Origin: Neocallimastix lanati (nom. inval.)
Taxonomy: Eukaryota > Neocallimastigomycota > Neocallimastigomycetes > Neocallimastigales > Neocallimastigaceae
DNA: 64,000 nt
NCBI GenBank assembly: GCA_016946835.1
Contig: JACVTC010000084.1
Span: 481,501-545,500 of the forward strand
Direction of reading: 5' to 3'
This document shows positions 451 to 48,807 of this stretch, one piece after another. The notes beneath the pieces are model-generated. The model was not told the origin of the DNA. It made no database searches and was given only the letters and a program-made list of their open reading frames with translations. Numbering within the stretch: position 1 is the stretch's first letter; each line of letters begins with the position of its first letter. Both the position numbers and the translations under genes were made by a program.

Positions 451-2217
451 TTATATTTTTATTCTTTTATTATTTGAGATTTTATTATTTAATAATTTAT
501 TATTTAAATTTTTATTTAAATTAAAATTATTATTAATATTTAAATTTTTATTAAAATTTAATATATCTTGTGAAACATTTTTTGTTTTGTCAATAACAAG
601 TTGCCTTCTTCCTCTTTTAAAGTTTAGTTTTATCCTTTTGTTTACATTAAGAGAAGGTGTTTTTACACTTTTATTTTGTAATATATTATTATTTAACTGA
701 TTGTTATTAATATTGAATTTTGGATTTAATTCTGATTTATTTAATATATGGGAATTTACATTTTGTAAAATATTATCTGTATATTCTTTATTATTTGATT
801 CATTTTGAATTTTATTATTATTATTCAAATTTTTAATTTCATGATTATTAATATTATTTCCATTTATGGAATTATTATTATTGTCATCAGAAATTTTATT
901 ATTTTCATATGAATTAGAGTTTTCAGTAGAAAAATTTTTTTCAGAACTTAAATTATTATAATTTTCTTCAATATTTACATTTTCAGATTTTTCATCAAAA
1001 TTTTGAAAATTTTTATTAATAAAATTTTTTTCATCCACTGATTCAAAAAATTCATCATCAGAAAAATTATTAGGATCTTCTATTTCTTTTTCTTGGGTTA
1101 CCTCAATATTGCTTTTCTTTTTCATTTTATTTTCATTTTTATTTACATCATTATTATGGTTTTCATTTAATGTATTTTCAATATCATTTTTAGTATTAGT
1201 AATAGTATTAAAATCAGTATTATTAATATCACCAGAATTTTCTTTTTCAGAATTATTTTTATTTTCATTTTCTACTGAATTTGAATCCAAGTTTTTATGG
1301 TCATTTTGACCAGGAAAATTAAGGATTGTACCACTTTTTATCCTGTTTGTCTTGCTAAAATTAAAGACAAAATTTAAAAAGGATGGATATCCATTTTCTT
1401 CACCTACTGAATTAGATAGTGAGAGTTTTGCTGGCTCATTTTCTTTACATATTATTTCTCTAACATTATGGATTTTATAATCTTCATAATCCATAACAAT
1501 ATTAGAGTTAGTAACTTCACTAAATCCAAGGAAAATTCCTTTCTTTGAATTTGGTGAAAACTTAGATTTATTTTGATCAAAAAATTTATAATAGGTAATA
1601 CATCCAAAAGTCCTAATATGATCAATTTTAACTTTTTCATTGAAGAAAACTTCATCTGGGATAGTTTTCTCAGAGATAAGATGCGGAGTTTTATTATATA
1701 AATAATTTGCATATTGGATAGCGAAATCCCAAAAATTTTCAGATAATTTGCTCCAATATAGCAAAGTTTTAGTACAAGAAATAATGGTTTGATTAAACCT
1801 TTCTGCTAAACCATTATTTTCTGGATTGTAGGGAGGAGAATAAATTTTATTTATTCCGTTATCTTTACAAAATCTAGTTAACTTTTTATTTCTATATTCC
1901 TTAGCATTATCAGACTTAAAATTTTTTACTTTTTTATCATTAAAAATATTATTTAAATATTTAATAAAATCAATAAGTAAATCAATTGTTTCTGATTTAC
2001 TTTTCATCAGAAAAATCCAACTTTTATGTGATTTTTCATCAATTACTGCTAGTATAAATCTTTTCCCAGTAATTGAATCATTAATTGGTCCAATAATATC
2101 GGAATGTATTATTTCTAATATTTCTGTTGCTTTTGGAGTTTCTTTGTTATGTGGGAATCGTTTTAATTTCGCAATTTTACGGTCAATACATTCTGATTCT
2201 TTAATATTATGAATATC
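451..2217 (-). pseudogene. Copia integrase core with Asn-rich C-terminal tail
   Basis: The frame is open from just after a TAA at 2218-2220 down to 451. The upstream part carries C-I-D-R-K-I-A-K, where the HHCC zinc finger normally has C-x2-C; the second Cys is Arg here (CGT for TGT). The DDE catalytic residues can be placed: Asp in H-S-D-I-I-G-P, Asp in K-S-D-N-A-K-E-Y, and Glu in N-N-G-L-A-E-R-F. The copia signature R-T-F-G-C and the G-I-F-L-G-F-S segment follow. After about residue 200 (counting from the Met at 2007) the protein becomes an Asn/Glu/Lys-rich tail of about 300 residues, the variable linker before RT. It would insert the cDNA if intact; as written the stop and the lost Cys make it non-functional. 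Confidence 0.9.
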
Positions 2218-2748
2218 TTAATATTCATTTAAATTTTCTAAATAATAATGGCCTAATTTTCTATGCCATAATAATTTACTTTCATTATTTAGTTTATTTA
2301 TTGCCATTATATTATTTTTTATATTTTCTTTTATTGAATTATCATGTATTGCTGTAATAATTAATTCATTGCGACTATTTGATACAAATGATCCTATAGT
2401 TTTGTATAGGTTATCCATTAAAGTAATTTTAACTGTATCATTATTAATTGATTCAGTTAGAGTCTTAATGCCTAATTTAGCTAATTCCACACCACTTATC
2501 ATGTTCTTGGCAACATCTTTTGAGTATAATACGAGCTTTAAAATAATTTTATAATTATTTATAAAGAAAGAAAATTCTCCATAACCTTCAAAGGTGCATA
2601 CAGTATTATTAGCACAGGTTAATTCAATTTCTTCTTTTTTGTAGTTTTTTAATAAGTTTTTATTGTTTGTTAAGTGTTCTCCTGCTCCAGAATCATATAA
2701 CCAGTAGGATTTATCATAGAAATGTTCTTTAACACTTTTGACGCGTTA
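2218..2748 (-). pseudogene. Copia aspartic protease and GAG-pre-integrase segment
   Basis: This frame is the same as the integrase frame and opens just downstream of a TAA at about 2749. It begins with W-L-Y-D-S-G-A-G-E-H-L-T; the D-S-G triad of a retroelement aspartic protease is encoded around 2686-2694. It runs through to L-W-H-R-K-L-G-H near 2250, the two histidines of the pre-integrase HHCC finger. The reading ends at a TAA (2218-2220), after which the same frame continues as integrase. One nonsense mutation therefore splits an otherwise continuous pol. The frame overlaps the end of gag by about 78 nt and is reached from gag by a -1 shift. Confidence 0.85.
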
Positions 2749-3755
2749 TTTTTATAATTAATTAAATATACTGATTTATGAGATTTATTAGTGTCCTTTT
2801 TAAACATGATCTTTATATCTTCATAATCTACATTAGCATTGAATTGTTCATTTATATTATATTGTTTAATTATTCCTGTATAATATGTTCCTTTTCCTTT
2901 TTTCTTTGAAGATGATTGATTATTATTATTACTTTTACTATTGTTTGTATTCTCTTCCTTGGAATACTCTTGGTTTACATATTTATTAAATTTACTGTTC
3001 TTATTTAACGCGTTAAACCAGCAATCAGAAGTGTTGTGATTATTTTTATTACATATATGCCAGTATTTTTTATCTGCTTTCTTTGTCTGGTAGTTTCTTT
3101 TATTGTTATTTTTATTCTTCTTTTGGAATTTACCAGCATAGTCTATTTCCATTGGATCATCCATAGGTTGATTATTTAAGTTCCATTGTTGGATATAAGC
3201 AAGTTTGTTTATGTCTTCCACTATTTTCTTACTAATACTAGTAAAATTATCTATATCAGTAAGAGTAAATTTATTTGTATAATCTTCTGGCATAGCGTTA
3301 AATAGGTATCTTAATTTTTCATCTTCAGATAAGTGGAAATTTATATTATCCATGTTTTCAAAAATATCTTTTAACTGATCTATCACGTCTAGAATTCCTT
3401 GTTTATTAGTTGTTTTTATTGAGTTTAATTTCTTCAACCAGTATGATGAATCAGTAGTTGAACTACCATATTTCTTCTTTAATTTTGATATAATTTCATA
3501 GGAAGTATTTAGTCCTACTATTTCTCTATGGATATTTATATTTATTGTATTTAGAATTTTAGATACAACTTTTGCATCCTTTTTAATTTGTTCTTTCTTA
3601 TCATTTGGTGGATTATCAATATCCACGTTATTCAATACATTTTCTTTAATGTAGTGTAATAAACCTTCCTTTCTTAGTTCATTGCATAGATAATTAAACC
3701 ATAACGCATAATTATCTGTACCTTTTAATATTATATAATTATTAATCTCGCTCAT
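2670..3755 (-). CDS. Copia Gag polyprotein (361 aa, zinc knuckle damaged)
   Basis: An open frame of 361 residues starts at the first Met after a long poly-T/leader stretch. Residues 1-200 match the copia Gag layout (DUF4219/UBN2 type): an N-terminal L-K-G-x-D-N-Y-A-L-W-F-N motif followed by helical capsid-like sequence. A zinc knuckle stands near residue 230: x-H-I-C-N-K-N-N-H-N-T-S-D-C fits C-x2-C-x4-H-x4-C except that the first Cys is Trp (TGG, one base from TGT/TGC). A basic, Asn/Ser/Lys-rich tail follows. Gag would form the virus-like particle in the cytoplasm. With the knuckle altered and pol broken, this is a relic despite the intact frame. Confidence 0.85.
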   Translation of the reverse strand: MSEINNYIILKGTDNYALWFNYLCNELRKEGLLHYIKENVLNNVDIDNPPNDKKEQIKKDAKVVSKILNTININIHREIVGLNTSYEIISKLKKKYGSSTTDSSYWLKKLNSIKTTNKQGILDVIDQLKDIFENMDNINFHLSEDEKLRYLFNAMPEDYTNKFTLTDIDNFTSISKKIVEDINKLAYIQQWNLNNQPMDDPMEIDYAGKFQKKNKNNNKRNYQTKKADKKYWHICNKNNHNTSDCWFNALNKNSKFNKYVNQEYSKEENTNNSKSNNNNQSSSKKKGKGTYYTGIIKQYNINEQFNANVDYEDIKIMFKKDTNKSHKSVYLINYKNNASKVLKNISMINPTGYMILEQENT

Positions 3756-3804
3756 GGAAAAAATAATAAATTTTTAATTTATTAATATATTAAAAATTTT
3801 TATT

Positions 3805-10770: not shown

Positions 10771-10887
10771 GATAAGAATGTATCAAATAATGCATTCTTA
10801 ATTAAATCTACGATTCATTTCTAATACATTATGTGTACATTATTATTTTTGTACTTTAATAAATTTTTAAATCCAAAGATCAAAAAT

Positions 10888-11086
10888 TGTAATGTAAGTC
10901 TCATAATTAAAATCAAAAATCCTTTTCTTTAATGTATGCGCCACACATTATAATATATGCGCCACTACAATTAAATAAATGGACATAATATATTATTTCA
11001 GCCATTAGTATTTTTACATTATGTCCAAAAAATATTTGTAATGAAATACTATAAAAATAAATAATATTTCGAAGAATTAGAAATCT

Positions 11087-11119
<33 letters not shown>

Positions 11120-11312
11120 CCTTCTTCCCAATTTTACTTCTCAATAAAAAGATCAATTTTGAGAAGTCTACATATTAGGAATAGACAAACTATAATCCAT
11201 CCATCAAGGATATTAATGTTACTTATATAATTAATAAAATAAAATAATAAATAAAGTTGAATAATTGAGTGATATCCCGGTAAACACTAATCTATTGCTA
11301 ATATATTTAACA
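10888..11312 (+). repeat. 5' LTR of the Ty3/gypsy element
   Basis: It begins TGTAATG and ends TTAACA. It matches 15880-16289 almost base for base; the main differences are a longer poly-T tract (about 11090-11119), a few substitutions and a two-base change near 11225. A TATA-like ACTATAAAAATAA lies at 11048-11060, then the pyrimidine tract, then 11136-11167, where ACTTCTCAA and TTGAGAAGT form a 9-bp hairpin arm pair. The self-complementary primer segment (11141-11156) lies in the first arm and the loop. Transcription would plausibly start close to 11141. Confidence 0.93.
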
Positions 11313-11328
11313 TTGATCTTTTTATTGA
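11313..11328 (+). promoter_or_regulatory. Self-priming primer-binding site
   Basis: The 16 bases immediately after the 5' LTR, TTGATCTTTTTATTGA, are the exact reverse complement of TCAATAAAAAGATCAA inside the LTR at 11141-11156 (also 16117-16132 in the 3' LTR). In Tf1 of fission yeast the 5' end of the transcript folds onto such a site and is cleaved to prime reverse transcription, so no tRNA is needed. No TGG start, typical of a tRNA 3'-end primer site, is present here. The match is seen directly; the mechanism is inferred. Confidence 0.8.
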
Positions 11329-11349
11329 CCATACCCCGATATCACAATC

Positions 11350-12363
11350 ATGGAAGCTAGTAAATCTAAGGCCGATACTGTTAATAAGAATGCTAGCTCG
11401 TCATCAGATACTACCAACAAAGACGATCTAACAACGAATATCACCACTTGTCTCAGCGCGATAGCCCAAGCTATGGAAACCCAAATACAACTTATGAGAA
11501 GCCTACAACCACTATTGGATTCGATGCGTGACCTGAATGAAAAGCTCACTGGAAGGAACCAGGTCTCGAACACCAGCATCAAAAATAACGGGGATATTGT
11601 TATCACTTCCTTAGAAGTCCCCTCAAATCATCTAGACAACATTAATTCATTCAAGGGTAAAGATACTGACATTGAAAGATTCTTTTCAATGTGTCGCCGC
11701 CAGTTTGACTACTATGAGAAGTTTTATGCCTCAGAAAAGAGAAGGGTAGAATTTATTGAGGCTCACTTAGGCTCCGCTTCTGAATGGTATTACATCTTTA
11801 TGAGTGAAAAACAAAGGGAGAATCCCGATTCGGAGTTACTCTTGGACGAGCTTAGGAAATTCCATCTTACTGATCTCCCAGATTCCCTTAAACTCAAAAG
11901 ACTTAAAGAACTTAAACATAAGTGGGGTAACGCGTCTGACTTCGTTACCAAGTTTAAGTTGTACGCAACCCAACTGCAAATACCCGAAATTCTCCAGTTG
12001 GAACTCTTTGAAGACCGCGTTCATCCGTTGGTTAAGAAGAAGCTATTAGACTTGGAACCTCAGAGAAGAACCATTGATAACTACTTAAGTATGCTTATGA
12101 CATACGACAGCGAGAGGGATCGCCATTGGGATTTTGATCCGAACAAAAGGAAAAGTAACTCTGCTGACAAGGAACAGAGGAAGAAGAAGAAGTTTAAATC
12201 ATGGAAGGAACACTCATCGTCTAGAAATAATAACAACGAAACCTATAACAAATTCAAAGACAATAAGAATAGTATGTCCCAAAATAGTAATATTAATCAC
12301 AACAAACATATTGATACGAAGAATAGAATGGGACCAAAAAACTCAAAGAGCGATTTCCAATAA
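11350..12363 (+). CDS. Gypsy Gag protein (337 aa)
   Basis: The frame starts at the first ATG after the primer-binding site and runs 337 residues. Residues 1-80 are polar. Residues 90-260 resemble the retrotrans_gag capsid domain: F-K-G-K-D-T-D-I-E-R-F near 98-108, R-V-E-F-I-E-A-H-L-G-S-A-S-E-W-Y near 133-148, then helical sequence ending in L-S-M-L-M-T-Y. The tail (265-337) is strongly basic and Asn-rich (K-K-K-K-F). No CCHC zinc knuckle is visible; the basic tail may do nucleic-acid binding, as in some Tf1/sushi-like elements, or the knuckle may be lost by a frameshift. It would build the particle in the cytoplasm. Pol follows in another frame. Confidence 0.85.
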   Translation: MEASKSKADTVNKNASSSSDTTNKDDLTTNITTCLSAIAQAMETQIQLMRSLQPLLDSMRDLNEKLTGRNQVSNTSIKNNGDIVITSLEVPSNHLDNINSFKGKDTDIERFFSMCRRQFDYYEKFYASEKRRVEFIEAHLGSASEWYYIFMSEKQRENPDSELLLDELRKFHLTDLPDSLKLKRLKELKHKWGNASDFVTKFKLYATQLQIPEILQLELFEDRVHPLVKKKLLDLEPQRRTIDNYLSMLMTYDSERDRHWDFDPNKRKSNSADKEQRKKKKFKSWKEHSSSRNNNNETYNKFKDNKNSMSQNSNINHNKHIDTKNRMGPKNSKSDFQ

Positions 12364-12452
12364 ATAAAATTGGGAATCCAGTGAATAAACTCTCCTTCAT
12401 GAATACTCCTCTTGGGTCTATTCCAAGGATTTTCATCAAGGTCAAATAGCGG

Positions 12453-13979
12453 ATGAAAATTCCATCTACCGGTGAAGTGAGGGAAACCGTTGCCATATTG
12501 GACTCCGGTTCCGGGATAAATCTAATTAACGAAGACCTTGCTCACGACTGGGGGATACCACTATTAAGGGATAGAACTAAAATCATATTTCCAAACCAAA
12601 AGGAAGTCTCGAATAACATCACTCAAGAGTTGAGTGTCGAGCTTAAACTACCTAATGATGAAGGAAAAATAATCAAGAAAAAACAAGAACTTCGCTTTAT
12701 GCTTTCGAAAAATATTCCTTATGGGTGCCTGCTAGGTATACATACCTTATTTGACCTCAGGATAGGCTTCAAGGTTGAAAAAGAGGGTTACCAACCCTAC
12801 TTCAATGAGGAAGAAATAGGTTCGATGGATTCATCATTACTGTTAGAGGATCTAAATAGAAACAAGGTCTCATTCGTATTGATTGAAGATGGAAATATTT
12901 CGAACCTTGAGCAGCTCCCGGAAGAGTATCGAGAGTACTCTTCCGTATTTAATCAGCAATTAAATAACCAGTTACCTCCCCATCGGATTGGTTTTGATTG
13001 CGAGATTGAGTTGCTTCCTGGGGCTCGTCTTTTTAAAGGACCAATTTACCCGATGAATCCTACGCAATCCGAAGAAGCTGACAAGTACATCAGCGAAAAT
13101 TTAGCAAAAGGATTCATCCGTCCTTCAAAATCACCAGCAGCATACCCAGTACTTTTTCAAAGGAAGAAGGATGGATCTCTACGCTTCTGCGTAGACTATA
13201 GAAAGTTAAACGAAGTTACAGTAAAGGATTCGTATCCTTTACCATTATATAATCTATTCTTTGAAGAGATAAGAGGATCCAACTATTTTACTAAATTAGA
13301 TCTTAAAGCAGCTTACAACCTTGTACGAATAAGAAAAGGCGATGAATACAAAACCGCTTTTCGTACTCGTCGGGGTCAGTATGAGTATTTGGTAATGCCT
13401 TTTGGGCTCACCAATGCTCCAGCTGTTTTTCAAAGATTTATAAATTTTGTCTTAAACGATTTTATTAATAAATTTGTTGTTGTTTATTTAGATGATATCC
13501 TTATATATTCTAGGACACTTGAAGAACACAAAGAACACGTCAAAGCCGTGCTGAAAGCTCTTAAGGAAAACCACCTACTTGTGAACCTAGAGAAATGCTT
13601 GTTCCACGTAAAAGAACTGGAATTCCTAGGTCATGTCATATCTGGGAAGTTCATCAAGACAGATCCAAAAAAGCTAGAAGCAGTTCTATCTTGGCCGGAA
13701 CCAACAACTGTGAAACAATTCCAGTCGTTTCTTGGATTTGGAAATTACTACCGCCGGTTTATAAAGAATTTTTCATTAATAGCAAGCCCACTCTTCCATT
13801 TAACTAAGAAAGGTACCGATTTCGATTGGAATGAGGAGTGTCAGAAATCTTTCGACAGACTTAAGAAGCTCTTAACTACCACACCAATACTGTTACTTCC
13901 CGATCCTGAGAAACCCTTTATCTTAAGAGACCGATGCTTCACATTATGCTTTAGGGTGTATCCTGTCGCAAAGAGATGA
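12453..13979 (+). CDS. Gypsy Pol: protease and reverse transcriptase (truncated by frameshift)
   Basis: Residues 1-110 are an aspartic protease with A-I-L-D-S-G-S-G (D-S-G at 17-19). RT follows: F-I-R-P-S-K-S-P-A-A-Y near 221-231, F-C-V-D-Y-R-K-L-N near 245-253, L-D-L-K-A-A-Y near 282-288, M-P-F-G-L-T-N-A-P near 315-323, the catalytic Y-L-D-D at 345-348, and F-L-G-F-G-N-Y-Y-R-R-F further on. The ATG at 12453 is the first after a TAG at 12447-12449; the same frame upstream of that TAG looks coding, so the true start may lie earlier. The frame is lost at about 13925 by one extra A, just before the RNase H motif T-D-A-S, and ends in unrelated residues. Confidence 0.92.
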   Translation: MKIPSTGEVRETVAILDSGSGINLINEDLAHDWGIPLLRDRTKIIFPNQKEVSNNITQELSVELKLPNDEGKIIKKKQELRFMLSKNIPYGCLLGIHTLFDLRIGFKVEKEGYQPYFNEEEIGSMDSSLLLEDLNRNKVSFVLIEDGNISNLEQLPEEYREYSSVFNQQLNNQLPPHRIGFDCEIELLPGARLFKGPIYPMNPTQSEEADKYISENLAKGFIRPSKSPAAYPVLFQRKKDGSLRFCVDYRKLNEVTVKDSYPLPLYNLFFEEIRGSNYFTKLDLKAAYNLVRIRKGDEYKTAFRTRRGQYEYLVMPFGLTNAPAVFQRFINFVLNDFINKFVVVYLDDILIYSRTLEEHKEHVKAVLKALKENHLLVNLEKCLFHVKELEFLGHVISGKFIKTDPKKLEAVLSWPEPTTVKQFQSFLGFGNYYRRFIKNFSLIASPLFHLTKKGTDFDWNEECQKSFDRLKKLLTTTPILLLPDPEKPFILRDRCFTLCFRVYPVAKR

Positions 13980-14460
13980 ACTAGGAAAACTACATCCAGT
14001 AGGATACTACTCTCGTTCTTTCACCAAAGCCGAACGTAATTATTCAATTACTGATAAGGAATTACTTGCCATCATTACAGGTCTCGAGGAATTGGAAACA
14101 CCTACTTATTGGAGCAAAGGAGCCAATCAAGATCTTCACAGACCATAGAAACTTATTATTTGCTAGCAAACCCCAAAAGATAAGTATGCGTCAAGCGCAT
14201 TGGCAGGAAATTTTGTCTTACTACAACTACAAAGTTATTTATAGACCAGGATCCATGAAGGTAAGGGCTGATAGTTTATCAAAGGCGCCCTGACTATTCA
14301 AACGATCAAGATATCCAATATGAATCAATCCTCGATCCAAGTAAATGTTCCTTTTACTGCTTCCTAAACCTTGCTAACGACACTTCCTTACTCAACCTAA
14401 TTAAAATAAACCAAGTGAAGGGATCCAATTCTCGGTCCAATAATTAATGTCTTAAACGGG
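13925..14460 (+). pseudogene. Gypsy RNase H and connection region, frameshifted
   Basis: From about 13927 the shifted frame gives E-T-D-A-S-H-Y-A-L-G and Y-S-R-S-F-T-K-A-E-R-N-Y, the start of the RNase H domain. After an extra T near 14092 the frame of 14066-14293 continues with I-F-T-D-H-R-N-L, then Y-R-P-G-S-M-K-V-R-A-D-S-L-S. Another extra A near 14281 moves the following residues (R-R-P-D-Y-S-N) to a third frame. The family would remove the RNA strand from the RNA/DNA hybrid. Each break is a single inserted base in or beside a short A or T run. Confidence 0.85.
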
Positions 14461-15655
14461 AACGAGTCCGAATTAAAGCACGTTCGCAAATATGACTTGT
14501 CTAAATTTTCTTTAGAGAACAACTTCCTTCTCTTTAACGGATTGATTTGCGTTCCTGAATCTTTCAGAAAGGAAATTCTCTCCGCCTGTCATGACTATGC
14601 ATCTGCGGGACATTTAGGAATTGGGAAAAGTGCCGAACTAATCAGTAGAAACTTTTACTGGCCTGCTTGGATGAAAGACGTTCAAAACTACGTAAAATCC
14701 TGTAAAAATATATGTTCCAGTATGAAGTCTTCTCGTCATAAAACCCTACGGTGAAATGATCCCTCTGGACATTCCGTCCTGTCCTTGGAAAGTCGTAAAG
14801 ATAGATTTCATTACTAATGTTCCATCAAGAAACCAAGATTTTTCGATTATGGTCTCATGCGATAGGCTAACTAAAATGGTCCACCTTTACGCCTTTCCAG
14901 GACTTCCCACTGCTAACCAAGCTGCTATTGCTTTCCTTAAAAGTGTCTTCTACCTTCATGGACTACCAACCGAAATTATAATTGACCGTGGTTCTCAGTT
15001 CACATGTGAACTATGGAAAGAAATAATGGGTATCCTTTCTAATAAGCATAGCACTGCTATTACCGGTCATCATACTACTGTAGGACAAGTCGAGAGGTTG
15101 AATCAGTCTATTGAACAATTCATCAGATGTTTCCTTAGAGCTTACCCTTCTGAAGACTGGTTGGATTGGTTGTTTGTATTTAATCGAATTTATCTACAAC
15201 AACAGTAAGAAATTCATCTACTGGACAACCACCATTCTTAGCATTCAATGGGTTCCTACCTTCATTCTCTCCACTCAGCAATTCTGCCATCTCTACATCT
15301 GGTAGTGTCTTCCATATCCCAGATTTCGCTGCGAATGTGAAAAAACAAAAAAACACGTATTAGCTGCTTCCCAAGAACTCTACAAGCACTATGCTGATTC
15401 AAAAAGAAGTTTCCCTCCATCCTTCAAAGTTGGAGACCTAGTTTGGTTGAAAAGACCTTCCAATTATATTCCATACTCCTCAACAAAATTATGCCCGAGG
15501 AAATACGCGGACCTTTCAAAATTATGGAGGCCTTAGAATTTAATAACTACAGACTAAATCTTTCGAATTCCCCTTTTCCGCGTAAATATGATATTTTCAA
15601 TATTTGTGAATTAGAACCCTTTACTAAACGAAACAAGTCTCTCTCTGATTATTGA
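14461..15655 (+). pseudogene. Gypsy integrase, split by frameshifts
   Basis: The H2C2 zinc-binding domain is read at 14497-14754: H-D-Y-A-S-A-G-H-L-G-I-G then C-K-N-I-C, where C-x2-C would be usual and one extra residue sits between the cysteines. An extra A near 14742 breaks the frame before M-I-P-L-D. The catalytic core (14756-15208) has Asp in K-I-D-F-I-T, Asp in I-I-D-R-G-S-Q-F-T, and Glu in G-Q-V-E-R-L-N-Q-S, the complete DDE set. More shifts near 15170-15215 scatter the Y-N-N-S and S-S-T-G-Q-P-P-F segments. The C-terminal part (about 15361-15655) reads G-D-L-V-W-L-K-R and G-P-F-K-I. No chromodomain follows. Confidence 0.88.
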
Positions 15656-15864
15656 TCACTCTCCAGAAATTCATTCAATTTTAAATTTTAAATTGCAGAA
15701 TTAATCCAGAAAACCAAAATTGCGAATACTTAGTATCTTTACATAGAGCCTTGGGTTTTCAAATAAATGAGTGGATTCCTCAATTGAAGACGAGGACGAC
15801 TACTATTCTGACATACTGGCTCTACTTTAATAATATCTCCAGCAATTCTCCTATATAATCTGGG

Positions 15865-15879
15865 GCTTGAAGGGGGTAG
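15865..15879 (+). promoter_or_regulatory. Polypurine tract of the Ty3/gypsy element
   Basis: GCTTGAAGGGGGTAG lies directly against the TG start of the 3' LTR. The purine-rich GAAGGGGG core is the expected plus-strand primer site. About 210 bases of untranslated DNA (15656-15864) separate it from the end of pol. Confidence 0.85.
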
Positions 15880-16289
15880 TGTAATGTATGTCTCATAATT
15901 AAAATCAAAAATCCTTTTCTTTAATATATGCGCCACACATTATAATATATGCGCCACTACAATTAAATAAATGGACATAATATATTATTTCAGCCATTAG
16001 TATTTTTACATTATGTCCAAAAAATATTTGTAATGAAATACTATAAAACTAAATAAAATTTCGAAGAATTAGAAATCTCTCTTTTTTTTTTTTTTCCTTC
16101 TTCCCAATTTTACTTCTCAATAAAAAGATCAATTTTGAGAAGTCTACATATTAGGAATAGACAAACTATAATCCATCCATCAAGGATATTAATGTTACTT
16201 AACATAATTAATAAAATAAAATAATAAATAAAGTTGAATAATTGAGTGATATCCCGGTAAACACTAATCTATTGCTAATATATTTAACA
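15880..16289 (+). repeat. 3' LTR of the Ty3/gypsy element
   Basis: It begins TGTAATG, ends TTAACA and repeats the 5' LTR. The poly-T tract is shorter (about 15 versus 30), and there are roughly five to eight point differences. The following AAAAT (16290-16294) equals the five bases before the 5' LTR. Confidence 0.93.
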
Positions 16290-16294
16290 AAAAT

Positions 16295-30275: not shown

Positions 30276-31796
30276 TTAAGCTTTTCCGGCCATTTTAGCA
30301 TCCATTTCTTCAAGATTAAGTCCTTTACTTTCAATAACATAGAATTGAGAGTAAATCCAGGCAAGAAGACAGGCTGCTGCAAAAAGAAGGAAAGTCTTAG
30401 TACTCCAGGCTTTCATAAGAGCTGGGCCAACAAATGCAATAATCCAGTTGTTAAGGAAATTGGAAACCGTACCAACTGCACTACCTTTAACTCTGACACG
30501 AAGTGGGAAAACTTCAGCTTGATATACCCATGGAACTGGTCCCCAAGTCCAAGCGAATGAGAAGACCATAAGGAAAATACTAGCAACGGCAAAGTATTGC
30601 CACATCTTTCCTCTAAAAGTTTGAGTAGAGAAAGCCCAAGTGGAGATATGGAAAACCATCATCATAAGTGATCCAATAATTAATAATGTTTTACGTCCTA
30701 ATCTTTCAATACCCCACATACCTGGGAATGTAGAAATGAAATTGACAAAGTTGTTAATGATTGGAAGAACAACAGTAGACATAAATTTAGTAAAACCAAT
30801 TTCACCATAAATTTGTGATTGATAATACATAATGACATTAATACCAGTCCATTGTTGGAAAAGTTGCATTAAGAAAGTAATGAAAGTACGACGACGAATA
30901 ACAGGACTGAAAAGTTCACCGACAGAAGAAGAACCTGCAGCACGAGTAGCCGCAACATCTTCTTGAATAGCTTTGAGTTCTTCTTGAACAACCGAATCTG
31001 AAATGGAGGTAGCATTAAGTTTAGCTAAAACTTCGGCAGCTTCTTCATCACGATCTTTTGAACAAAGCCATCTTGGAGATTTTGGAAGGAAACTCATAAG
31101 AATGGCAAGACCAAGACCTGGAACTACTTGGAAAAGAAGTGCAAATCTCCATTCGAAATTTGGAACTTCTTCCCAAATATTTGATCTTGGCTTTCCTAAA
31201 CCTTCTGGTTTAATATTAGTATAATACCAAACAATAGAATTGATGATGGCAGCAACAATAATACCGAAAGTGGTCATAAGTTGATAACAAGAAGAAAGCG
31301 TACCTCTAATCTTAGCAGGAGCAACTTCAGAAATGTAAGTTGGACAAAGAACACCATTACAACCAATAGAAAGACCAGTGATAAGACGACCAATAGCAAT
31401 CATAATCCAAGTACGAGCAGATAAACCTTGAATGATGGCACCACAAGTAAAAATACAAGCACCAATCATAATAGTTCTTTGACGACCGAATTTTTCACCA
31501 AGATAAGTGGCCATCAGAGCACCACAAAGAGCACCAAGAACGAAACTTGAAGTGATAACTCCTTCAAGCATAGCTTTATTATCGGCTTCTTTTAAATCAC
31601 GATACCATTTTTCTTGAGTATCATTTTTAATTTTTTTACCATTTTCATCTAGAGCATCACCATTCCAATTATGAAATTTAAAGAAGATACGGAAAGCATC
31701 CATGACAAGAACGACATTCATAACACCACATTCATAACCGAAAAGAAGACCACCTAAAGAAGCAGTCACAGCTACTAAAAATTGAAAAGAATTCAT
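30276..31796 (-). CDS. MFS sugar transporter, copy 1 (506 aa)
   Basis: A single-exon membrane protein of the sugar-porter branch of the major facilitator superfamily (Sugar_tr), with about 12 hydrophobic segments. Signature motifs are G-G-L-L-F-G-Y-E at 15-22, G-R-Q-R at 104-107, R-L-I-T-G at 137-141, P-K-S-P-R-W at 238-243 (P-E-S-P-R in most relatives), Q-Q-W-T-G-I-N at 314-320, L-G-R-K-T at 366-370, and E-S-K-G-L at 489-493 (the P-E-T-K-G position). Length is normal for fungal hexose/xylose permeases. It would carry sugar across the plasma membrane; the substrate cannot be told. Differences from the other copies are Ile265 and Pro203. It lies divergent from copy 2 across 4.2 kb, within an inverted repeat. 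Codon use is C/T-ended and much less AT-rich than the flanks. Confidence 0.95.
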   Translation of the reverse strand: MNSFQFLVAVTASLGGLLFGYECGVMNVVLVMDAFRIFFKFHNWNGDALDENGKKIKNDTQEKWYRDLKEADNKAMLEGVITSSFVLGALCGALMATYLGEKFGRQRTIMIGACIFTCGAIIQGLSARTWIMIAIGRLITGLSIGCNGVLCPTYISEVAPAKIRGTLSSCYQLMTTFGIIVAAIINSIVWYYTNIKPEGLGKPRSNIWEEVPNFEWRFALLFQVVPGLGLAILMSFLPKSPRWLCSKDRDEEAAEVLAKLNATSISDSVVQEELKAIQEDVAATRAAGSSSVGELFSPVIRRRTFITFLMQLFQQWTGINVIMYYQSQIYGEIGFTKFMSTVVLPIINNFVNFISTFPGMWGIERLGRKTLLIIGSLMMMVFHISTWAFSTQTFRGKMWQYFAVASIFLMVFSFAWTWGPVPWVYQAEVFPLRVRVKGSAVGTVSNFLNNWIIAFVGPALMKAWSTKTFLLFAAACLLAWIYSQFYVIESKGLNLEEMDAKMAGKA

Positions 31797-32264
31797 CTTC
31801 TTATATTTTTTAATTTTTATTTATTAATTATTAAATAATTTATTAAATGTATTAAACTAAATATTTATATTAATAATAGTTTAATAATAATGTAATAGTC
31901 TATATAATATTATTTTTAATTTTTTTTTTTTTATTTTAACTATATTTTAAATAAAACTAATTATATAATATATAATTATCATAAATAAAAATAATTTTGA
32001 AGAAAAATTTATCTCTTTATATATAATAAAAATTTTAGTAATTATTTTATATTATAAAGTTAATTAATACTAATATGTATAATACTAAACTTAAATATTT
32101 GAATATTATTATAATAAATAATAATATAATTAAATTATTGAATTAAACTAAATAAAAATAATAATAACAATAATAAAATTATTTAAAATTAAATAAATAT
32201 TAATATTAAAATATATATATTATATATAAATAATATATATGTATATTTTTGAAATCAAATGATT

Positions 32265-34340: not shown

Positions 34341-36002
34341 AAAAAAATCTTTATTTAGGAGTATTTTTATTTTTTAATTAATTTTTAATAATTTTGGATA
34401 TTTTAATTTTAATATGTATTATGCATTTATATTAAAGAATTCATGAATTTTATTTATTAAATATACTGTTTATTAATATTTGCCTTTGAAAATAATACAT
34501 ATTAAAAATAGATATTAATTTTTACTCAAAATTATATATTGTTAACATATTAATATGTTTTATATTAAATTATTAAAATTAGTATGAAAATATACTTACT
34601 TTATATTTAATTATTTCGGACAATTTGAAAAAAATAGTTTTTATATAAAATAATTTATAGATACTTTCATTTTATATATGTATATAATATTAAGTACTTC
34701 ATTATAATAACTTTAATATTGACATAATAAAGATAAAAATATTTCATTATGCAATAAATATACTTTTTTTCTTTAATAATGATATTGATAATTTAGAGTT
34801 TTAAAACCTTATACATTGAAACTCATTCTCAAAGAAAATATTAAATATAATCATTAAGGAATGAATATATCACACTCCTTAACGACTCCATTTAATATTT
34901 TCTTTTTTAATCATTTGATTTAATAAAGAAAAAAAAATTAAATATTTCATTATTAATATTTATTTAATTTTAAATATTTTATTATATTTCTTAGTTTCAT
35001 TCAATAATTTAATAATATTATTATTTTTATTCTTAAATATAAATATTATTTATATAAATATTATAATATATTTATGAATATAAAAAAATTTCAATAAAAT
35101 ATTATAATTTTCAATATTTAAAAACTATAATAAATAATAAATTTATTCTTAAATATAATTTTTATTTTTTAAAGTATTCATATTCAGGAAAATAATAGAA
35201 TTAAACATATTAAAATTTTTGAATTAAATTATAAAGTGGATATTTATAGAGTATTTATATTTATATTAAAATTTATTTTATTCCAAATAATTGAATAATT
35301 AATAGATAAATAATCATAAATATTATTTGCCACGTTTTATTTTTTTTTATAAATAGAGAAGTGAATCTTATTTCTTTTATTTCATTTGTAATACGTCACA
35401 TTATCATTCTTATTATATTAAATAAAGTTTATTAAATATTTATTATATAAAATTAAAAAATGAAAAAATTTATATAAAAATAAATAAAACAAATTTATAA
35501 AATAGAAATATTTAATATTTTAATATATATACAAATAATAATATTGAAATACTTTTAAATATGATTAATACATATTAATAGTAGACCTTGAAATTATATT
35601 TTTTTACATATTCTTAAATAATATTTTTATTATTATAAATAAAAAAACTCCTTCAAAACAATATTCAATTATAATTGTTTCGAAATATAATTAACATTAT
35701 TAATTAACTTTAAAATTTATAATATTTTAATTCGAAATTATTATAATTTATATATAATAATTAATAAATTTTTATTTTATATATAAAGAGATAAATTTTT
35801 CTTTTAAATTATTTTTATTCATAAAAATTATATATTATATAATTAATTTTATTTAAAATATTGTTAAAAAAAAAAAAAATAAAAATAATAATATATAGAC
35901 AATATTACATTATTATTAAACTATTATTAATATAAATATTTAGTTTAATACATTTAATAAATTATTTAATAATTAATAAATAAAATTAAAAAATAAAAGA
36001 AA
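34341..36002. other. 5' flank of transporter copy 2
   Basis: Mirror image of the copy 1 upstream region. It contains the hairpin at 34831-34907 and a block TTTCATTTGTAATACGTCAC (35379-35398), repeated at about 40000 and, inverted, near 43820 and 48295. This block is relatively rich in G+C for the region and could be a promoter element (CGTCA core). No coding frame. Confidence 0.6.
34831..34907 (-). repeat. Conserved hairpin element, copy b
   Basis: Reverse-oriented relative to copy a and about 1.1 kb upstream of transporter copy 2. The centre on the minus strand reads GGAGTGTGATATATTCATTCC. Arms are GAAAATATTAAATA and TTTAATATTTTC. Confidence 0.8.
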
Positions 36003-37523
36003 ATGAATTCTTTTCAATTTTTAGTAGCTGTGACTGCTTCTTTAGGTGGTCTTCTTTTCGGTTATGAATGTGGTGTTATGAATGTCGTTCTTGTCATGGA
36101 TGCTTTCCGTATCTTCTTTAAATTTCATAATTGGAATGGTGATGCTCTAGATGAAAATGGTAAAAAAATTAAAAATGATACTCAAGAAAAATGGTATCGT
36201 GATTTAAAAGAAGCTGATAATAAAGCTATGCTTGAAGGAGTTATCACTTCAAGTTTCGTTCTTGGTGCTCTTTGTGGTGCTCTGATGGCCACTTATCTTG
36301 GTGAAAAATTCGGTCGTCAAAGAACTATTATGATTGGTGCTTGTATTTTTACTTGTGGTGCCATCATTCAAGGTTTATCTGCTCGTACTTGGATTATGAT
36401 TGCTATTGGTCGTCTTATCACTGGTCTTTCTATTGGTTGTAATGGTGTTCTTTGTCCAACTTACATTTCTGAAGTTGCTCCTGCTAAGATTAGAGGTACG
36501 CTTTCTTCTTGTTATCAACTTATGACCACCTTCGGTATTATTGTTGCTGCCATCATCAATTCTATTGTTTGGTATTATACTAATATTAAACCAGAAGGTT
36601 TAGGAAAAACAAGATCAAATATTTGGGAAGAAGTTCCAAATTTTGAATGGAGATTTGCACTTCTTTTCCAAGTAGTTCCAGGTCTTGGTCTTGCCATTCT
36701 TATGAGTTTCCTTCCAAAATCTCCAAGATGGCTTTGTTCAAAAGATCGTGATGAAGAAGCTGCCGAAGTTTTAGCTAAACTTAATGCTACCTCCACTTCA
36801 GATTCGGTTGTTCAAGAAGAACTCAAAGCTATTCAAGAAGATGTTGCCGCTACTCGTGCTGCAGGTTCTTCATCAGTCGGTGAACTTTTCAGTCCTGTTA
36901 TTCGTCGTCGTACTTTCATTACTTTCTTAATGCAACTTTTCCAACAATGGACTGGTATCAATGTCATTATGTATTATCAATCTCAAATTTATGGAGAAAT
37001 TGGTTTTACTAAATTCATGTCTACTGTTGTTCTTCCAATTATTAATAATTTTGTCAATTTCATTTCTACATTCCCAGGTATGTGGGGTATTGAAAGATTA
37101 GGACGTAAAACATTATTAATTATTGGATCACTTATGATGATGGTTTTCCATATCTCCACTTGGGCTTTCTCTACTCAAACTTTTAGAGGAAAGATGTGGC
37201 AATACTTTGCTGTTGCTAGTATTTTCCTTATGGTCTTCTCATTCGCTTGGACTTGGGGACCAGTTCCATGGGTATATCAAGCTGAAGTTTTCCCACTTCG
37301 TGTCAGAGTTAAAGGTAGTGCAGTTGGTACGGTTTCCAACTTCCTTAACAACTGGATTATTGCATTTGTTGGCCCAGCTCTTATGAAAGCCTGGAGTACT
37401 AAGACTTTCCTTCTTTTTGCAGCAGCATGTCTTCTTGCCTGGATTTACTCTCAGTTCTATGTAATTGAAAGTAAAGGACTTAATCTTGAAGAAATGGATG
37501 CTAAAATGGCAGGAAAAGCTTAA
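36003..37523 (+). CDS. MFS sugar transporter, copy 2 (506 aa)
   Basis: Identical to copy 1 in protein except Thr203 for Pro and Thr265 for Ile, so all family motifs listed for copy 1 are kept. The frame is complete with the same start and the same C-terminal K-M-A-G-K-A. It is transcribed away from copy 1 and towards copy 3 (same strand, 3.1 kb downstream). Coding identity at the nucleotide level is far higher than that of the flanks, pointing to recent amplification or gene conversion. Its product should have the same role in sugar uptake as copy 1. Confidence 0.95.
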   Translation: MNSFQFLVAVTASLGGLLFGYECGVMNVVLVMDAFRIFFKFHNWNGDALDENGKKIKNDTQEKWYRDLKEADNKAMLEGVITSSFVLGALCGALMATYLGEKFGRQRTIMIGACIFTCGAIIQGLSARTWIMIAIGRLITGLSIGCNGVLCPTYISEVAPAKIRGTLSSCYQLMTTFGIIVAAIINSIVWYYTNIKPEGLGKTRSNIWEEVPNFEWRFALLFQVVPGLGLAILMSFLPKSPRWLCSKDRDEEAAEVLAKLNATSTSDSVVQEELKAIQEDVAATRAAGSSSVGELFSPVIRRRTFITFLMQLFQQWTGINVIMYYQSQIYGEIGFTKFMSTVVLPIINNFVNFISTFPGMWGIERLGRKTLLIIGSLMMMVFHISTWAFSTQTFRGKMWQYFAVASIFLMVFSFAWTWGPVPWVYQAEVFPLRVRVKGSAVGTVSNFLNNWIIAFVGPALMKAWSTKTFLLFAAACLLAWIYSQFYVIESKGLNLEEMDAKMAGKA

Positions 37524-40500: not shown

Positions 40501-40608
40501 ATATATACTATTACATTATTATTAAATTATTATTCATATAAATATTTAGTTTAATAAGTTTAATCAATTAATTTAATAATTACTAAATAAAAAAATAATT
40601 ATAAGAAG
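37524..40608. other. 3' flank of copy 2 and 5' flank of copy 3
   Basis: 37524-38200 holds the downstream motifs: GGTATTAATTGATTTAATACC at 37766-37786, a weaker one near 37878, and AACTTAACTTAAACTTAACTT at about 37808. 38390-38700 is a segment also found near 34040-34300 and 42960-43080. 38750-40608 is the upstream unit with its hairpin at 39299-39374 and the CGTCA block near 40000. There are small (AAT)n runs at 38500-38545. No gene. Confidence 0.6.
39299..39374 (-). repeat. Conserved hairpin element, copy c
   Basis: It lies about 1.2 kb upstream of transporter copy 3, with the same orientation relative to the gene as copies a and b. The centre on the minus strand reads GGAGTGTGGTATATTCATTTC. 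Confidence 0.8.
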
Positions 40609-42128
40609 ATGAATTCTTTTCAATTTTTAGTAGCTGTGACTGCTTCTTTAGGTGGTCTTCTTTTCGGTTATGAATGTGGTGTTATGAATGTCGTTCTTGT
40701 CATGGATGCTTTCCGTATCTTCTTTAAATTTCATAATTGGAATGGTGATGCTCTAGATGAAAATGGTAAAAAAATTAAAAGTGATACTCAAGAAAAATGG
40801 TATCGTGATTTAAAAGAAGCCGATAATAAAGCTATGCTTGAAGGAGTTATCACATCAAGTTTCGTTCTTGGTGCTCTTTGTGGTGCTCTGATGGCCACTT
40901 ATCTTGGTGAAAAATTTGGTCGTCAAAGAACTATTATGATTGGTGCTTGTATTTTTACTTGTGGTGCCATCATTCAAGGTTTATCTGCTCGTACTTGGAT
41001 TATGATTGCTATTGGTCGTCTTATCACTGGTCTTTCTATTGGTTGTAATGGTGTTCTTTGTCCAACTTACATTTCTGAAGTTGCTCCTGCTAAGATTAGA
41101 GGTACGCTTTCTTCTTGTTATCAACTTATGACTACTTTCGGTATTATTGTTGCCGCTATCATCAATTCTATTGTTTGGTATTATACTAATATTAAACCAG
41201 AAGGTTTAGGAAAGATAAGATCAAATATTTGGGAAGAAGTTCCAAATTTCGAATGGAGATTTGCACTTCTTTTCCAAGTAGTTCCAGGTCTTGGTCTTGC
41301 CATTCTTATGAGTTTCCTTCCAAAATCTCCAAGATGGCTTTGTTCAAAAGATCGTGACGAAGAAGCTGCCGAAGTTTTAGCTAAACTTAATGCTACCTCC
41401 ACTTCAGATTCGGTTGTTCAAGAAGAACTCAAAGCTATTCAAGAAGATGTTGCGGCTACTCGTGCTGCAGGTTCTTCATCAGTCGGTGAACTTTTCAGTC
41501 CTGTTATTCGTCGTCGTACTTTCATTACTTTCTTAATGCAACTTTTCCAACAATGGACTGGTATCAATGTCATTATGTATTATCAATCTCAAATTTATGG
41601 AGAAATTGGTTTTACTAAATTCATGTCCACTGTTGTTCTTCCAATTATTAATAATTTTGTTAATTTCATTTCTACATTCCCAGGTATGTGGGGTATTGAA
41701 AGATTAGGACGTAAAACATTATTAATTATTGGATCACTTATGATGATGGTTTTCCATATCTCCACTTGGGCTTTCTCTACTCAAACTTTTAGAGGAAAGA
41801 TGTGGCAATACTTTGCTGTTGCTAGTATTTTCCTTATGGTCTTCTCATTCGCTTGGACTTGGGGACCAGTTCCATGGGTATATCAAGCTGAAGTTTTCCC
41901 ACTTCGTGTCAGAGTTAAAGGTAGTGCAGTTGGTACGGTTTCCAACTTCCTTAATAACTGGATTATTGCATTTGTTGGCCAGCTCTTATGAAAGCCTGGA
42001 GTACTAAGACTTTCCTTCTTTTTGCAGCAGCATGTCTTCTTGCCTGGATTTACTCTCAGTTCTATGTTATTGAAAGTAAAGGACTTAATCTTGAAGAAAT
42101 GGATGCTAAAATGGCCGGAAAAGCTTAA
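40609..42128 (+). pseudogene. MFS sugar transporter, copy 3, frameshifted near the C-terminus
   Basis: The frame matches the other copies up to residue 457 and then runs into F-V-G-Q-L-L and a stop at 41989-41991. The cause is one missing C: GGCCAG at about 41978-41983 where the other copies have GGCCCAG. The remaining 49 codons follow intact in the next frame to the TAA at 42126-42128. The lost part covers the last membrane segment and the E-S-K-G-L motif, so the product is probably non-functional unless this is a sequencing error. Other differences are Ser58 and Ile203. All upstream motifs are intact. Confidence 0.93.
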
Positions 42129-46151: not shown

Positions 46152-47672
46152 TTAAGCTTTTCCGGCCATTTTAGCATCCATTTCTTCAAGATTAAGTCCC
46201 TTACTTTCAATAACATAGAATTGAGAGTAAATCCAGGCAAGAAGACAGGCTGCTGCAAAAAGAAGGAAAGTCTTAGTACTCCAGGCTTTCATAAGAGCTG
46301 GGCCAACAAATGCAATAATCCAGTTGTTAAGGAAGTTGGAAACCGTACCAACTGCACTACCTTTAACTCTGACACGAAGTGGGAAAACTTCAGCTTGATA
46401 AACCCATGGAACTGGTCCCCAAGTCCAAGCGAATGAGAAGACCATAAGGAAAATACTAGCAACAGCAAAGTATTGCCACATCTTTCCTCTAAAAGTTTGA
46501 GTAGAGAAAGCCCAAGTGGAGATATGGAAAACCATCATCATAAGTGATCCAATAATTAATAAAGTTTTACGTCCTAATCTTTCAATACCCCACATACCTG
46601 GGAAGGTAGAAATGAAATTGACAAAGTTGTTAATAATTGGAAGAACAACAGTGGACATGAATTTAGTAAAACCAATTTCTCCATAAATTTGAGATTGATA
46701 ATACATAATGACATTAATTCCTGTCCATTGTTGGAAAAGTTGCATTAAGAAAGTAATGAAGGTACGACGACGAATCACTGGACTGAAAAGCTCACCGACA
46801 GAAGAAGAACCTGCAGCACGAGTAGCCGCAACATCTTCTTGAATAGCTTTGAGTTCTTCTTGAACAACTGAATCTGAAGTGGAGGTAGCATTAAGTTTAG
46901 CTAAAACTTCGGCAGCTTCTTCATCACGATCTTTTGAACAAAGCCATCTTGGAGATTTTGGAAGGAAACTCATAAGAATGGCAAGACCAAGACCTGGAAC
47001 TACTTGGAAAAGAAGTGCAAATCTCCATTCGAAATTTGGAACTTCTTCCCAAATATTTGATCTTGGCTTTCCTAAACCTTCTGGTTTAATATTAGTATAA
47101 TACCAAACAATAGAATTGATGATGGCGGCAACAATAATACCGAAGGTAGTCATAAGTTGATAACAAGAAGAAAGCGTACCTCTAATCTTAGCAGGAGCAA
47201 CTTCAGAAATGTAAGTTGGACAAAGAACACCATTACAACCAATAGAAAGGCCAGTGATAAGACGACCAATGGCAATCATAATCCAAGTACGAGCAGATAA
47301 ACCTTGAATGATGGCACCACAAGTAAAAATACAAGCACCAATCATAATAGTTCTTTGACGACCAAATTTTTCACCAAGATAAGTGGCCATCAGAGCACCA
47401 CAAAGAGCACCAAGAACGAAACTTGAAGTGATAACTCCTTCAAGCATAGCTTTATTATCGGCTTCTTTTAAATCACGATACCATTTTTCTTGAGAATCAT
47501 TAGTAATTTCTTTACCATTTTCATCAAGGGCATCACCATTCCAATTATGAAATTTAAAGAAGATACGGAAAGCATCCATGACAAGAACGACATTCATAAC
47601 ACCACATTCATAACCGAAAAGAAGACCACCTAAAGAAGCAGTCACAGCTACTAAAAATTGAAAAGAATTCAT
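46152..47672 (-). CDS. MFS sugar transporter, copy 4 (506 aa)
   Basis: A complete frame identical in domain layout and motifs to copies 1 and 2. Differences cluster in the first extracellular loop (Glu55, Thr57, Ser60), with Pro203 and Thr265. It is convergent with copy 3 across about 4 kb that includes the gene-less fifth unit. Its upstream sequence (47673-49900) again carries the CGTCA block and a hairpin. Synonymous differences relative to the others are more numerous than amino-acid changes, so the protein is under constraint and this copy is likely active. Confidence 0.95.
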   Translation of the reverse strand: MNSFQFLVAVTASLGGLLFGYECGVMNVVLVMDAFRIFFKFHNWNGDALDENGKEITNDSQEKWYRDLKEADNKAMLEGVITSSFVLGALCGALMATYLGEKFGRQRTIMIGACIFTCGAIIQGLSARTWIMIAIGRLITGLSIGCNGVLCPTYISEVAPAKIRGTLSSCYQLMTTFGIIVAAIINSIVWYYTNIKPEGLGKPRSNIWEEVPNFEWRFALLFQVVPGLGLAILMSFLPKSPRWLCSKDRDEEAAEVLAKLNATSTSDSVVQEELKAIQEDVAATRAAGSSSVGELFSPVIRRRTFITFLMQLFQQWTGINVIMYYQSQIYGEIGFTKFMSTVVLPIINNFVNFISTFPGMWGIERLGRKTLLIIGSLMMMVFHISTWAFSTQTFRGKMWQYFAVASIFLMVFSFAWTWGPVPWVYQAEVFPLRVRVKGSAVGTVSNFLNNWIIAFVGPALMKAWSTKTFLLFAAACLLAWIYSQFYVIESKGLNLEEMDAKMAGKA

Positions 47673-48807
47673 CTTCTTATAATTATTTTTTTATTTAGTA
47701 ATTATTAAATTAATTGATTAAACTTATTAAACTAAATATTTATACGAATAATAATTTAATAATAATTTAATAATAGTTTAATATTATACAGGATATTATT
47801 TTTAATTTTTTTTTTAACTATCTTTTATATAAAATTAATTATATAATATATAATTTTTATGAATAAAAATAATTTAAAAGAAAATTTTATCTCTTTATAT
47901 ATATAATAAAAATTTATTAATTATTATATATAAAAGAAAATTTTATCTCTTTATATATATAATAAAAATTTATTAATTATTATATATAAATAATAATAAT
48001 TTTAAATTTTAAAGTTAATTATACTTTTTGAAGGAGTTTTTTTATTTATAATAAAAATATTATTTAAGAATATGTAAAAAAATAAAATTTCATGGTCTAC
48101 TATTAATATGTATTAATTATATTTAAAAGTATTTCAATATTATTATTCGTATATATATTAAAATATTAAATATTTCTATTTTATAAATTTGTTTTATTTA
48201 TTTTTACATAAAATTTTTCATTTTTTAATTTTATATAATTCATTATTTATAAACTTTATTTAATATAATAAGAATGATAAATGTGACGTGACGTATTACA
48301 AATGAAATAAAAGAAATAAAAAGATTCACTTTTTTATTTATAAAAATATTTAAACGCCATAAATAATATAAATATTTATGGTTATTTATCCGTTAATTAT
48401 TCAATTTTCTGGAATAAATAAATTTTAATATAAATATGGATACTCTATAAATATCTACTTTAATATATTTTATTTTAAAAATTGAATAATATATGGTTAA
48501 TTCTATAATATACTTGGATATGAAATACCTTTAAAAATAAAAAATTATATATTTAAGAAGAAATTTATTATTTGTTATAGTTTTTATTTAATATTTTATT
48601 GAAATTTTTTCATATTCATAAATATAAAAATAATAAAAATATATATAAATTAAAATATTTATATTTAAGAATAAAAAATAATATTAATATTAGATTGAAT
48701 GAAACTAATAAAAAAAAATAATAGAATTATTTAAAATGAAGTAAAAATTAATATTGAAATAGATTTTTTTTTTTTTTTGTATTTTTGCAGTCAAATGATC
48801 AAAAAAA

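Follow-up and report, generated by a model that had tools for sequence, protein, structure and literature searches.

What primes minus-strand DNA synthesis in the Gypsy element of this locus? The window, by which we mean the whole 64,000-nucleotide stretch of DNA that was analysed, carries an element whose bases directly behind the 5' LTR are the reverse complement of a segment inside that LTR, and the original prediction held that the element primes from its own LTR, as Tf1 does, instead of from a tRNA. As judged from its sequence and its relatives, it is very probably a decayed Ty3/Gypsy element, likely of the Tf1/sushi sort, from a family that self-primes minus-strand DNA synthesis.

The window element and its primer:PBS match

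The features of the window copy, all on the + strand, are as follows.

10888-16289, +: Gypsy element, 5.4 kb
10883-10887 and 16290-16294, +: 5' and 3' copies of the target site duplication (TSD) AAAAT, 5 bp
10888-11312, +: 5' LTR, TG...CA, 425 nt, from alignment with the 3' LTR
11050-11059, +: TATA motif TATAAAAATA, 91 nt 5' of the primer segment
11090-11119, +: T30 tract, 16 nt shorter in the 3' LTR
11141-11156, +: putative self-primer TCAATAAAAAGATCAA, kept in many LTR relatives
11313-11328, +: primer binding site (PBS) TTGATCTTTTTATTGA, directly 3' of the LTR's CA
11350-12363, +: ORF in the gag position, 337 aa, without a Pfam match
12453-13979, +: reverse transcriptase (RT) ORF, about 508 aa, with RVT_1 and the start of RT_RNaseH_2, the frame being lost thereafter
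14497-14754, +: integrase piece, Integrase_H2C2
14756-15208, +: integrase piece, rve, 29.8 bits against a cut-off of 32.6 (E 7.4e-7)
15398-15652, +: integrase C-terminal piece, with a weak SH3_Tf2-1 match of 20.8 bits against a cut-off of 30
15869-15879, +: polypurine tract GAAGGGGGTAG, adjoining the 3' LTR
15880-16289, +: 3' LTR, TG...CA, 410 nt, in which the primer segment recurs at 16117-16132

With its LTRs, TSD, polypurine tract and Gypsy-type RT and integrase, the window copy showed the make-up of a Ty3/Gypsy element, and the best solved-structure relatives of its RT were Ty3 RT and Ty3 Gag-Pol (4ol8, 7q5b). The two LTRs differed by 5 substitutions in 409 aligned columns, with 17 further gap columns. 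The integrase pieces lie in separate frames, so the pol of this copy is broken, and the copy is therefore probably dead. Longer open RT frames, of 624 and 687 aa, were found in some close copies, compared with about 508 aa in the window. The sequence composition was 81% AT, and the genome measured 199 Mb.

Elsewhere in the window, Copia-type gag (Retrotran_gag_2) and integrase ORFs were seen on the minus strand at 451-3773, and chitin-binding and sugar-transporter genes were present; together with the AT content and the genome size, these genes would suit the gut fungus that the original prediction took as host. Four ORFs on both strands (30276-31820, 35997-37523, 40591-41991 and 46152-47690) looked nearly identical by eye, and the one of the four that was tested, 30276-31820, matched Pfam Sugar_tr, so that a recent sugar-transporter expansion is likely.

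The noted complementarity between PBS and LTR was exact, 11313-11328 being the reverse complement both of 11141-11156 and, as had also been noted, of the segment in the 3' LTR. On 3' extension the match ended at 16 nt, with one extra pair within the LTR (11157 with 11312). None of 3000 dinucleotide-shuffled LTRs equalled it, the longest match among them being 13 nt. The exact 16-mer occurred 32 times in the genome and its reversed control pattern 0 times, and 29 of the 32 occurrences were placed within matches of the window LTR family.

Among 30 LTR loci of this family (window included), seven showed a PBS and coding region behind the LTR. The exact 16-nt PBS was kept in four of the six PBS-bearing siblings; the PBS of L054 had one mismatch, and that of the decayed sibling L052 had several mismatches and began TGG. 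None of these six PBS-bearing siblings showed a compensatory change.

Sister families with the same layout

Fifteen sister Gypsy copies were examined, in their 5' regions, for a primer:PBS pair. The pair was found in 11 of them, in five sequence lineages including the window's. Among the matches listed for the RT query, other families showed 59-62% identity and one decayed copy 76%; in a comparison of 30 loci, different families stood at 56-66% and some closer groups at 72-82%. The copies with a pair were:

Family B (C190, C744): AGCGTTAACAA, pair present
Families C, F and C2 (C16, C155, C287): GTAAGATTAT, pair present
Family K (C355): GTAAGGTTAT, pair present
Families O and G (C208, C588): AGTTGGAAAAT, pair present
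Families D and D2 (C1, C81): GTATTAGTTAT, pair present
Relative of the window family (C90, L069): pair with one mismatch

Of the other four, C45, C14 and C747 showed no pair, their LTR not being located within the fetched stretch, and in C23 a PBS was present and its AGTTGG partner was absent from about 1470 nt upstream.

In the ten copies tested (window included; five PBS lineages), primer and PBS were perfectly complementary over 10-16 nt, and the PBS always began at the first base after CA, 160-418 nt downstream of the primer segment. The chance per single match was at most 0.45% (2000 shuffles each). In four families, namely the window's, B (query 275), O (372) and D (262), the end of the LTR was set without recourse to the complementarity, while the LTR edge of C, F, C2 and K was deduced from the CA and that of G and D2 from their resemblance to O and D. 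The match was said to be longer than the 11 nt of Tf1, and this was true of the window family with its 16 nt, the sister families having 10-11 nt.

Comparison of the C-type pair (GTAAGATTAT/ATAATCTTAC) with that of family K (GTAAGGTTAT/ATAACCTTAC) revealed a compensatory change from A-U to G-C on both sides. The paired pattern GTAAG.../...CTTAC, with the variable position left free, was found at 98 places in the genome, and the reversed control at 0. In family B, 14 strips extended past the LTR, of which 6 were exact, 1 had a G-U pair and 7 were mismatched or without the primer segment; the remaining 6 of the 20 strips had no PBS after the LTR or were unaligned there.

The integrase C-termini were searched as well. 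SH3_Tf2-1, the Tf2-type integrase SH3 module that we ourselves chose as a clade feature, scored above the Pfam cut-off in all four sister families (B, C, O and D). Chromo scored above its cut-off in two of the four, O and D; no match was found in the integrase C-termini of B and C, or in the two integrase C-terminal pieces of the window that were searched. Taken by sequence, the window element is probably a Ty3/Gypsy element of the Tf1/sushi (chromovirus) sort.

Several further observations were made in the genome. When lists were compared by eye, Gypsy RTs had chromodomain ORFs at a distance of about 3.2-3.4 kb, in sense and upstream of RT at C1:46150, C79:366240 and C112:2080115, and antisense and downstream of RT at C74:25599, C231:38832 and C511:55109. 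The 40 copies scored in each of families C and K, of 466 and 748 candidates, were 95-100% and 98-100% identical, respectively, which suggests recent bursts. Evenly spaced RT copies were seen on C287 (L024-L027; four, about 6.9 kb) and C173 (three, about 5.7 kb), representing either tandem arrays or an assembly effect. The leader of family D (L071) held a repeat at 36-nt spacing, varying in copy number, between PBS and gag.

Primer position, RNA folding and alternative primers

For self-priming, the element RNA would fold back and bring the LTR-derived segment 11141-11156 into pairing with the PBS immediately behind the 5' LTR. By analogy with Tf1, the RNase H of RT would then cut 3' of 11156, and the 3' OH so freed would be extended into U5 and R. 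Since the PBS starts with the first base after the LTR, no gap would be left.

The position of the primer within the RNA depends on where the transcript starts. In all eight non-window copies compared (B, C, F, C2, K, O, D and G), a TATA motif lay 33-39 nt before the primer segment; the chance of this is 3-14% per copy, copies of the same lineage not being independent. In nine non-window copies the primer segment opened with a purine and was preceded by a pyrimidine. The TATA spacing and purine start of the sister families fit a primer that, as in Tf1, is the 5' end of the RNA.

The window copy differed in both respects, and its family in the TATA spacing. The transcript had been predicted to start near 11141, just behind a TATA box, and that description failed, as the TATA motif lies 91 nt upstream of 11141 with the 30-nt T tract between them; the spacing is 75 nt in the 3' LTR. 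In the 18 sibling LTRs with a primer segment that matched the search motif, the spacing was 64-70 nt in 12 and 58-97 nt in four, and two had no motif. Unlike that of the other families, the window match opens with T and not with a purine. A start at 11141 fits the sister-family spacing and not that of the window family, and it is unproven because the latter departs from 33-39 nt.

Both departures speak for self-priming from an internal site. The transcript would then start 33-39 nt behind TATA, at about 11083-11089, and the primer would lie some 52-58 nt inside the window RNA and about 25-37 nt inside that of the 12 siblings. On the other side, a CAA preceded by a pyrimidine-rich tract is among the known arrangements of fungal start sites; here it would place the start near 11143. 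A further TATA motif at -38 is present in L059, one of the 12 siblings, and the Tf1 precedent, in the available part of its description, uses the RNA 5' end (PMC7175516). We regard an internal priming site as possible but rather unlikely, and the fuller version of it, in which the self-primer of the window family lies some 25-60 nt inside the RNA, counted from the cap, within a hairpin that would have to open for priming, as somewhat less likely again. If true, it would be a variant of self-priming whose primer lies away from the RNA 5' end, and the RNA fold could act as a switch between translation and priming. The window's primer segment probably lies at the 5' end of the transcript or close to it.

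The RNA around primer and PBS could form the following structures.

11136-11167, +: 9-bp hairpin ACTTCTCAA/TTGAGAAGT, overlapping the primer segment, its local energy being reached by 2% of flank shuffles
11172-11185 with 11291-11304, +: nested duplex flanking the PBS helix (p 0.155 alone, not significant)
11269-11282 (LTR arm) with 11332-11345 (3' arm), +: crossing duplex, 12 of 14 pairs (p 0.06)

Part of the primer paired locally in ten of ten copies, with 0-25% of flank shuffles reaching the local energy; these figures no more than suggest that a hairpin at the primer is general. The crossing duplex, which joins the LTR with sequence just 3' of the PBS, gave p 0.005-0.06 in eight of ten family representatives and 0.115-0.16 in two, that of family B being a low-complexity T/A run; across six window siblings p ranged from 0.02 to 0.70. 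For the nested duplex, p was 0.05 or below in two of the ten representatives. All duplex p values are uncorrected and come from 200 shuffles with our own scoring. Duplexes like those of the Tf1 'pretzel' can thus be drawn beside the window PBS with partial support from these models.

The window leader folded better than 200 of 200 shuffles. The primer:PBS helix appeared in the best fold of seven of eight leaders with a 30-nt tail, and of five of ten with a 40-nt tail. We rejected leader folding as proof of self-priming because the outcome depends on the length of the 3' tail, shifting with 10 nt more of it; modelled folding lends self-priming weak support.

A host tRNA, acting through its 3' end or as an internal half-tRNA fragment, would be a different kind of primer, and the LTR complement would then be incidental. 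Priming by tRNA is the usual mode, some plant copia elements are reported to use half-tRNA primers (PMC6317226, as far as its text is available), and there is the decayed sibling L052 with its TGG. Against this, none of the six PBS types begins TGG, the first bases being TTG in the window and TTG, ATA or ATT in the sister types. The exact copies of the window primer fall mostly (29 of 32) in the window LTR family, and none of the 32 lies within the 63 tRNA places listed (63 of 9278 candidates scored). The pair moreover recurs in sister families with different sequences. The genome placement of the primer copies and the comparison with tRNA places disfavoured tRNA or half-tRNA priming, which we consider very unlikely. 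A clear tRNA-primed PBS in intact sibling copies had been named beforehand as a sign against self-priming; a TGG start was lacking from the six PBS types and occurred among the siblings only in decayed L052. ARAGORN found no tRNA gene within the 64-kb window. As a separate observation, 34 of the 63 listed tRNA places, with near-identical scores, sat on one stretch (C555:170-399 kb), which is either a tRNA gene cluster or a tRNA-derived repeat.

An inverted match produced by chance in AT-rich DNA, or belonging to an unrelated palindrome, is extremely improbable: matches of 7-10 nt arise readily in such sequence, but the LTR shuffles never reached 16 nt and the geometry at the LTR edge was identical in five PBS lineages, and chance was rejected on both grounds.

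Tf1-style priming from the element's own LTR is supported by the geometry that sister families share with differing sequences and by the one compensatory change, and is also backed by PBS types without TGG and by the Tf2-type integrase C-termini of sister families.

Comparison with known self-priming systems

In the available portions of the sources, self-priming is reported or predicted in yeasts, other fungi, vertebrates and mosses (PMC4600332, PMC6317226, PMC10085805). For anaerobic gut fungi, no report was found among titles and abstract openings, a body of literature with subscription papers largely outside it. If the host is a gut fungus, the range of self-priming would grow by a deep branch of the fungi. 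At least five primer/PBS lineages, differing in sequence and two of them present as many almost identical copies, share a single genome, so primer:PBS coevolution would be directly readable there. PBS finders that rely only on tRNAs are expected to miss such elements.

The Tcn1 clade (Cryptococcus, mosses, club-mosses, Batrachochytrium) consists of chromoviruses related to Tf1/sushi and was compared here by description only. In the excerpts available, self-priming is proposed for the Cryptococcus Tcn1 element (PMC6317226, PMC7175516) and predicted for most plant Tcn1 elements (PMC6317226), and the clade occurs in a chytrid (PMC2864245). The part of the same source at hand describes SM-Tcn1 as having neither tRNA priming nor self-priming found, and that of PMC5006619 describes Skipper of Dictyostelium as without such a complement.

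According to the accessible text, Tf1 of Schizosaccharomyces pombe uses the first 11 nt of its own RNA as primer, RNase H cutting that RNA between nt 11 and 12 (PMC7175516), and self-priming is a common feature of the Tf1/sushi group, for whose elements a three-duplex 'pretzel' has been described (PMC10085805). Like Tf1, the window element has a PBS beside its 5' LTR that is complementary to an LTR-derived segment of its own RNA, its LTR ends in CA, and duplexes flanking the PBS are possible (PMC7175516, PMC10085805, in part). Unlike the 11 nt of Tf1, its match is 16 nt long; the TATA spacing of its family is unusual, and the window copy has a broken pol and no chromodomain match. Its self-priming is deduced from sequence, as it is, by the available accounts, for Tj1 (S. 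japonicus), Tosmo1-3 and Tcry1 (PMC4600332, PMC10085805). Tj1, unlike the window element with its sequence evidence, is described there as shown to transpose (PMC4600332, PMC10085805).
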